In this document: in pieces, positions 62,331 through 63,876 of the stretch
Numbering within the stretch: position 1 is the first letter of the stretch
Layout: each line of letters begins with the position of its first letter
Assembly (NCBI RefSeq): GCF_042100115.1
Contig: NC_091273.1
Span: 62,001-126,000 of the forward strand
DNA: 64,000 nucleotides
Direction of reading: 5' to 3'
Source of the DNA: Alternaria dauci
Taxonomy: Eukaryota; Ascomycota; Dothideomycetes; Pleosporales; Pleosporaceae
The notes under the pieces: generated by a model
Told to the model about the DNA's origin: nothing
The model's database searches: none
Seen by the model: the letters and a program-made list of their open reading frames with translations, nothing else
Position numbers and translations under genes: made by a program

Positions 62331-62625
62331 CTAGCAGGACGTGCCGGCGCCATCGTAGTCGCAGCAGTCCGCATCAATGCAAGTGGACAGGACCTTTTCA
62401 GAGCAGTGCGTTCGCGACGCACAGTATTCGTTTTGAGTCAGGAGCTATCTTCCGCGGTTGTGCGAAGCACAAGCGGCATGGTTTTTGTAACAGCATCTGG
62501 CAGGGTCGCAATCCTAAGTGCCTGTTAGTACTTTCTTCGGGGCTCAAAGAAGATGGAAGTGGGATTTCACTCACGGCCATGGCCATGGCGGCGAAGAGGC
62601 TGGCGATGACGATGAAGACCTTCAT
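62331..62625 (-). pseudogene. Paralogue of the Cys-rich secreted protein with an internal stop
   Basis: Exon 1 (62625-62575) encodes a signal peptide MKVFIVIASLFAAMAMA, clearly related to MKFVFIIIASIAATVMAE of the gene at 63217. After a 61-base intron (62514-62574) exon 2 reads DCDPARCCYKNHAACASHNRGR and then TAG at 62445-62447. The frame continues open to TAG 62331-62333 with matching text (CSEKVLSTC, DADCC). The paralogue has CDPADCCYKSERTC, HGRGAF, CSENVLSTC and ADCC in the same order. The stop could be a CAG codon changed by C to T. A TATATAA (reverse of 62726-62732) lies about 100 bases upstream, so transcription may persist. Confidence 0.75.
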
Positions 62626-63216: not shown

Positions 63217-63503
63217 ATGAAATTCGTCTTCATCATCATCGCAAGCATTGCTGCCACCGTTATGGCAGAGGTAAGAATTCTTGATTCCCCATTATAACGT
63301 AGTGATAGTACTAACACGAACGGTGACAGTGCGACCCAGCAGACTGCTGCTACAAGAGCGAGAGAACCTGCGAGAAACATGGGCGCGGCGCGTTTTACTG
63401 TAGTCAAATGAATCCCTGCAGTGAAAACGTTTTGTCGACCTGCACTGCAGACTGCTGCGGCACTCAGAGGGGAGTCAACTACGGCGCTGGAGTTGGCTGC
63501 TAG
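63217..63503 (+). CDS. Small cysteine-rich secreted protein (effector candidate)
   Basis: Exons 63217-63270 and 63330-63503 (59-base intron) give 75 residues. The signal peptide is MKFVFIIIASIAATVMA; the intron falls exactly at its end, so the mature protein is encoded by the second exon. The mature part has ten Cys in about 57 residues (CDPADCC, RTC, FYC, NPC, STC, ADCC and a final VGC), which suggests five disulfides. It is a paralogue of the broken gene at 62331-62625. Small size, secretion, Cys content and location in gene-poor DNA beside a mobile element fit candidate effectors or antimicrobial peptides; there is no direct evidence of function. A mobile element lies just past its stop. 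Confidence 0.82.
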
Positions 63504-63513
63504 ATTAGCGGAG

Positions 63514-63521
63514 CTGGCAGA
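63514..63521 (+). repeat. Target-site duplication, left copy
   Basis: CTGGCAGA, identical to 63869-63876, directly outside the terminal inverted repeat of the element at 63522-63868. Identity of both copies points to a fairly recent insertion. Confidence 0.9.
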
Positions 63522-63868
63522 CAGACTTGTCAACAATCAAGCTAGCTTAATTGCTATCAAGCTAGTGCATTAAGCTAGCTATTTAATTATACTAAGCTAG
63601 AGTAGAGGTATAAAATAATTAAGCTAAGCTAGCTTATAGTAGCTTAATTATTTAGCTTAATAAGCTTAATAGAATTAAGAAGGTTAGATAAAGTAAGATT
63701 ACGTAGAGATAAGACACGTAATCTTAAACCCTTTTCCTCCTTCTTTTCCTTCTCTTTTAGGATATGCTTTAGCTATTAAGCTAATTAAGCTTATTAATTT
63801 TAACCTATTAAGCTAATTAAGCTAAGCTAGGGTACCCAGCTTGCTTGGCTTGATTGTTGACAAGTCTG
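63522..63868. mobile_element. Non-autonomous hAT-like element (MITE), 347 bp
   Basis: Perfect 21-bp terminal inverted repeats: CAGACTTGTCAACAATCAAGC at 63522-63542 and its reverse complement at 63848-63868 begin and end the element (each shown here as one 21-mer only by its key parts: CAGACTTGTC at the tip, AATCAAGC inside). They are flanked by an 8-bp direct duplication CTGGCAGA at 63514-63521 and 63869-63876. Eight-bp duplications and CAG-type tips are typical of hAT transposons. The inside is AT-rich, made of TTAAGCTTAA/GCTAGC-like palindromic bits plus a hairpin (AAGATTACGT near 63696 against ACGTAATCTT near 63717). No transposase frame is present. It begins 10 bases after the stop of the Cys-rich gene. 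Confidence 0.92.
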
Positions 63869-63876
63869 CTGGCAGA
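63869..63876 (+). repeat. Target-site duplication, right copy
   Basis: CTGGCAGA, the second copy of the 8-bp duplication. The 124 bases from here to the window end contain no gene I can support. Confidence 0.9.

Follow-up and report, generated by a model that had tools for sequence, protein, structure and literature searches.

Several described MITE systems are close to the element reported here, and they are summarised below from the accessible parts of the respective sources. The element mar of Drosophila is a MITE derived from a hAT transposon (PMC3517528). In Fusarium oxysporum, the MITEs mimp and mFot5 recur at many effectors and belong to Tc1/mariner-type families, with Fot5 placed under pogo and mimps being miniature Impalas (PMC3599309). 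Promoter-deletion strains at two Fusarium effector loci ruled out a direct role of mimp in expression (PMC3599309). Some MITE families of Zymoseptoria rank near the top in the share of their insertions that fall in 3' UTRs (PMC10936205), and in section Alternaria, RIP-affected DNA makes up only about 2% of the genomes (PMC13068351).

The element described here was found in Alternaria dauci, in a stretch of 64 kb (C2:62001-126000, hereafter the window) of a genome of 34.9 Mb, which consists of ten contigs (C1-C10) and was searched throughout. It belongs to an ordinary hAT MITE family, a kind that is already well known, and is inserted just behind a gene for a cysteine-rich, candidate secreted protein. 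Its body is filled with RIP-type changes, defined as C to T in CpA on either strand, and its ends are clean. This RIP-scarred body behind clean ends is a new point beyond the initial annotation of the window and a modest twist on a well-known kind of element.

The insertion and the adjoining gene

The features of the locus, in window coordinates, are as follows:
63217..63270, plus strand: putative exon 1, 54 nt, MKFVFIIIASIAATVMAE, signal-peptide-like by eye; the 75-aa protein P0001 starts similarly
63271..63329, plus strand: putative intron, GT..AG, read from the sequence
63330..63503, plus strand: exon 2 with 10 Cys, matched in A. tenuissima; stop codon TAG at 63501-63503
63514..63521, no strand: left copy of the target-site duplication (TSD), CTGGCAGA, read from the sequence
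63522..63868, plus strand: hAT-type MITE, 347 bp, oriented as the long elements on C4
63522..63542, plus strand: left terminal inverted repeat (TIR), 21 bp, from TIR comparison and TIR pattern search
63522..63670, plus strand: segment common to the left end of C4:284675 and C4:328157, 149 bp, 88% and 87%
63768..63868, plus strand: segment matching the right end of C4:284675 and C4:328157, overlapping repeat-rich pieces, 78-88%
63848..63868, minus strand: right TIR, 21 bp, from TIR comparison and TIR pattern search
63869..63876, no strand: right copy of the TSD, CTGGCAGA, read from the sequence

The 10-Cys gene is modelled with two exons and a protein of 75 aa. Exon 2 is 81% identical to AA0114_g10620 of Alternaria tenuissima, an uncharacterised protein whose equal length of 75 aa, together with the identity over exon 2, supports the two-exon model. 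This protein is the sole database relative found for the gene, and a Pfam search with exon 2 returned no family at E 1; the term effector-like, which has been applied to the gene, is to be taken as a description only. A paralog, which looks like a decaying duplicate, is found on the minus strand at window positions 62355-62510 (58% identity over 45 residues, one TAG within the match).

The two TIRs of the MITE are 100% complementary over 21 nt each, and the two 8-bp TSD copies are perfect. The stop codon is followed by a spacer of 10 bp (63504-63513) and then by the left TSD; both the perfect ends and the position 10 bp past the stop, as given in the initial annotation, are thus borne out. That annotation had placed the insertion at 63503..63876, of which the end coincides with the end of the right TSD; 63503, however, still belongs to the stop codon, as its final base, and the MITE starts at 63522. 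Judging from its distance to the stop codon, the MITE presumably lies inside the transcribed 3' UTR of the gene. No empty site was found within the genome: the 822-bp left flank of the MITE is single copy, and the only second genomic place matching exon 2, the neighbour at 62355-62510, is too divergent to reveal one.

The MITE family and its long relatives

The TIR pattern, searched with up to three mismatches, occurs at 59 places on each strand of the genome, and the control, the same pattern read backwards, occurs at none on either strand. Together with the recurrence of 8-bp TSDs elsewhere, this argues that the window MITE is not a chance arrangement, and it supplies the further copies with the same tips by which the initial annotation had proposed to judge the element. 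Locus counts are based on the first 100 of the 118 TIR places. Among the matches listed, there are at least 27 dispersed loci, from which the internal fragment C4:269735 is excluded, plus one copy riding in a subtelomeric repeat unit. Both ends were recognised at 22 of these 27 loci (among the matches listed); the five one-ended loci are C1:6585867, C2:55729, C4:202705, C4:212003 and C7:219956. The two-ended copies comprise 19 short ones of 117 to 602 bp and three long ones of 3.0 to 3.7 kb. Their TSDs are perfect 8-bp duplications in 16 cases (the window copy included) and carry one mismatch in five; that of C4:328157 is offset by one base, the remaining 21 of 22 having at most one mismatch. 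The family-wide 8-bp TSDs, and TIRs common to long elements of which one has a PF05699 match, uphold the earlier assignment to the hAT type. Eleven of the 27 dispersed loci (among the matches listed) are situated no more than 205 kb from a contig end, where 11.7% would be expected (binomial 1.3e-4); this distance corresponds to the average length of subtelomeres in section Alternaria as stated in the accessible part of the source (PMC13068351). Three copies of 202-203 bp (C2:2879732, C2:3953537 and C3:1967564) have perfect TIRs and TSDs and 96-98% mutual identity, which makes them the most similar group of this kind in the comparison of short copies; none of the 20 short copies in this comparison forms a pair with at least 98% identity and a match over 90% of the length.

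The subtelomeric copy is 423 bp long and has the TSD TCATGCAG. At least 34 perfect-TIR instances of it are found among the matches listed, for example at the contig ends L034 (2681-3103), L036 (2476-2898) and L046 (7345-7767). Instances are present at all ten left contig ends, 14-17 kb inward, and at eight right ends, 2-35 kb inward; as for the other right ends, the nearest copy on C3 is 135 kb in, and C7 has none among the matches listed. Up to six copies are found in a row on C4 with a spacing of 25-27 kb. Since the 11 distinct copies that were checked of the 34 are identical in length and TSD, the 423-bp copy was probably amplified as a passenger of the subtelomeric unit. For about 14 kb, the copies of the unit on C1 (L040-L042, C1:1-27 kb) and C4 are more than 99% identical, and the unit encodes an open stretch of 1491 residues with AAA_11/AAA_12 and zinc-knuckle domains; a Pfam search with three other long open stretches of the unit gave no match.

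Two of the long relatives, C4:284675-288330 and C4:328157-331775, are 3.6 kb in length and share 95.8% identity. Both are RIP-saturated, with a GC content of 0.22-0.23 and a CpA+TpG to ApC+GpT ratio of 0.06-0.08; none of the stop-to-stop stretches listed for either element reaches 80 residues, and PF05699 has no match in them. The window MITE has no coding capacity and matches these elements over 149 bp at the left and about 100 bp at the right; sharing of both subterminal regions argues that it is an internal-deletion derivative. The third long relative, C9:2360814-2363862 (3.0 kb, GC 0.505), has the perfect TSD ATACCTAC and the sole PF05699 match found in the genome (E 8e-17), which is interrupted by a TAG. 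It shares the tips alone with the window MITE: the left TIR is identical, and the right one has three mismatches and ends in TATAG instead of CAGAC. Its open stretches are short, the longest comprising 145 residues, although introns are possible. At the DNA level, two longer stretches of the C4 elements match the C9 element with 68-72% identity. DNA searches found the C9 element as a single copy; the search with one of the C4 elements recovered both long copies, a terminal fragment on C7 and the internal fragment C4:269735. A search with PF14372 had no match in the genome; its control was silent too, and the result is not evidence of absence. None of the three long relatives looks intact, and no intact transposase was found in the assembly by the PF05699 search, the DNA searches with the C9 and C4 elements or the inspection of open stretches; the active hAT source which the initial annotation had considered possible was thus not found in the assembly. 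A further region of C4, L013 (C4:202201-212200), is AT-rich, with a GC content of 0.24-0.38 per kb, carries two MITE-family ends and is probably a RIP island; its contig also bears the RIP-saturated long elements (C4:284-332 kb).

RIP-type changes and the order of events

The RIP-type changes of the window copy were counted against its un-RIPped sibling C2:2929824 (372 bp, CpA+TpG ratio 1.96); another sibling, C8:2525917 (342 bp, 82% over 322 bp), was left out of the RIP counts. Over 324 aligned sites, the two copies differ by 26 transitions and two transversions, and 25 of the 26 transitions place T or A in the window copy. From the sibling to the window copy, CpA/TpG is changed at 23 of 42 sites and other C/G at 2 of 88 (Fisher 4.5e-12); in the reverse direction, the counts are 0 of 19 and 1 of 87. 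The closest relative found for the window copy is C1:151059, from which it differs at 4% of aligned sites, gaps apart; in terms of transversions (two to C2:2929824, four to C1:151059), the un-mutated sibling is no more distant than C1:151059. Outgroup copies, which are mostly RIP-marked themselves, show by majority the window state at 16 of 25 sites and the sibling state at five, with four ties, so that the direction of change rests on the CpA context. Regarding the enzymes, four matches to the cytosine methylase family PF00145 are found at three places in the genome, an assignment at family level and not to RID specifically. The frame of one cytosine methylase of the genome, located outside the window, matches an A. 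dauci protein with 100% identity over 66% of the query and four named A. alternata proteins with 79-89% identity over 38-58% of it, which points to A. dauci or very close kin.

The changes are unevenly distributed along the window copy. RIP-type changes are found at 23 of 32 sites in the body and at 0 of 10 in the TIRs (Fisher 6e-5), and the TSD is without RIP-type change. On the left, the changes begin at position 22-23, directly past the TIR; on the right, there is no change for 18 bp inward of the TIR. Ten copies with a body ratio below 0.8 were considered RIP-marked (the window copy, C4:284675, C4:328157, C4:289639, C2:4982877, C1:151059, C4:3210523, C8:2510575, C10:1877334 and C10:1848076), and a count by hand gives 12 changes of the RIP type among their 100 TIR sites. 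In the left-type ends of seven of these copies, 3 of 35 sites are changed in the TIR compared to 28 of 49 at positions 22-58 (Fisher 3.3e-6, a value which, as the copies are related, is not a probability of independent events); C4:289639, C2:4982877 and C8:2510575 lack this end owing to deletion and do not enter the count. When the one-ended copy C4:212003 is added by eye, the counts become 8 of 40 and 35 of 56. This copy has a RIP-type change at all five target sites of its TIR, which demonstrates that RIP is able to reach the TIR. Among the five one-base TSD mismatches of the family, three are of the RIP type (C4:284675, C1:151059 and C10:1877334, typed by eye). Part of the TIR conservation is due to ascertainment, since a copy is less easily detected once its TIRs are ruined.

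Clean TIRs in RIPped copies, the proof that a TIR can be hit and the intact TSD of the window copy favour an order in which RIP came first and transposition later. We consider it somewhat probable that the MITE had already been scarred by RIP, its ends surviving, when it was mobilised in trans. In this reading, 3.6-kb hAT elements like those preserved as fossils on C4 would have given rise, through internal deletion, to a non-autonomous hAT element, whose body would have been mutated by RIP before arrival at the present site. As the 21-bp TIRs escaped RIP, a hAT transposase supplied in trans could still have excised the MITE, and its insertion would have generated the 8-bp CTGGCAGA duplication 10 bp past the stop codon. 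The source of the transposase may since have been lost from the strain or may be located elsewhere. The recent movement proposed in the initial annotation is supported relative to several relatives, as judged from the intact TIRs and TSD; the lineage, however, is not young, as its body is heavily RIP-scarred. The idea of a single RIPped founder was considered on the basis of shared RIP sites and found to be weak: the window copy and C1:151059 share 21 of 32 sites against 17.2 expected (P 0.002), which is little above the sharing with other copies (P 0.007-0.029 for four other RIP-marked copies, P 0.31 for the subtelomeric copy).

The main alternative is that the insertion came first and RIP acted in place, being weak at the edges of repeats, in which case no selection for mobility would be involved. 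RIP may indeed simply be weak near element edges, as C4:328157 combines a saturated body with two preserved TIRs and a left edge that stays unchanged through position 42, the first change being at 43; its right edge, however, is changed at position 22. The window copy is ambivalent in the same manner, with the 18 clean bp beyond the right TIR agreeing with such an edge effect and the changes immediately past the left TIR opposing it. Also opposing the alternative, RIP-type changes are present within the TIRs of C4:212003, C1:151059 and C2:4982877, and the MITE, at 347 bp, falls below the 400 bp that the accessible part of the source states for RIP, a limit which may not hold in A. dauci (PMC4112212). 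For TpA/ApT, the same source gives a reference value of above 0.89 (PMC4112212). The 500-bp left flank (TpA/ApT 0.75, CpA+TpG ratio 1.26) and, speaking against RIP in place, the nearest 132 bp of the right flank (0.62 and 1.73) are not RIP-like. The 532-bp right flank is borderline RIP-like (1.12 and 1.03), which would fit the alternative; on both measures together, only 9 of 237 stretches of this length across the 64 kb reach such values. Taken together, RIP after insertion appears unlikely, but it is the most serious competitor to RIP before mobilisation.

A separate question is whether the insertion matters for the gene. The initial annotation had suggested that it could affect where the 10-Cys transcript ends, how stable it is or whether small RNAs target it; a hairpin in the 3' UTR might act in this manner. 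The plus strand of the MITE, 10 bp beyond the stop codon, is predicted to fold with -126.3 kcal/mol (z -9.2 against 100 shuffles); strong folding, however, is expected of any element with long inverted repeats. For the mimp MITE of Fusarium, which lies upstream of its genes, a direct role in effector expression was excluded, as far as the accessible part of the report goes (PMC3599309). In view of this promoter-deletion result and of the 3' UTR insertions in Zymoseptoria, the position of the MITE alone is no evidence of function, and an effect of the hairpin is rather doubtful. It is very improbable that a hAT source is still active in the A. dauci strain sequenced: the perfect TSDs of 16 of the 22 dispersed two-ended copies (among the matches listed) and the 202-203-bp trio with its perfect ends and 96-98% identity would agree with it, but PF05699 is found at one place only and with a stop, the C9 element is a single copy with short open stretches and a decayed right tip, the C4 elements have a GC content of 0.22-0.23, and the 20 short copies compared include no pair at or above 98% over 90% of the length.

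Extending RIP before mobilisation from the window copy to the family, it could be proposed, tentatively and at slightly less than even chance, that RIP does not end family mobility: scarred copies with intact TIRs would keep moving in trans, carrying RIPped bodies behind selected clean ends, and one of them would have reached the 3' end of a secreted-protein gene, with no recognisable intact transposase left in the assembly.

Comparison with known systems

A literature search found neither the family of the window MITE nor any RIP-scarred yet mobile MITE among the titles and abstract beginnings listed, in which subscription papers are under-covered. Apart from its RIP pattern, the element is an ordinary hAT MITE near a gene, adjoining a candidate secreted protein. 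RIP changes in the body but not in the TIRs allow the sequence alone to indicate which of RIP and transposition came first, and they suggest that such elements could still move after RIP attack. As RIP-affected DNA is scarce in section Alternaria, the RIP-saturated copies of A. dauci, which we take to be probably a member of section Porri, may be worth a comparison.

The following comparisons refer to the accessible parts of the cited sources. Like mar, the window MITE is short, non-coding, hAT-related and bordered by TIRs; unlike mar, it resides in a fungal host, has a RIP-scarred body and has no intact partner that was found (PMC3517528). It shares with mimp and mFot5 at the SIX genes of F. 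oxysporum the location near a small secreted-protein gene of a plant pathogen, and with mFot5, which is often found downstream of SIX effector genes, the position behind the gene (PMC3599309). Both Fusarium families, however, are of a different transposon type from the hAT MITE of the window and recur at many effectors, whereas the window MITE is known here from one gene (PMC3599309). The MITEs of Zymoseptoria tritici are likewise gene-proximal, and some lie within 3' UTRs (PMC9970103, PMC10936205). They are described as little affected by RIP on account of their short length, whereas the body of the window MITE is filled with RIP-type changes (PMC9970103, PMC10936205).
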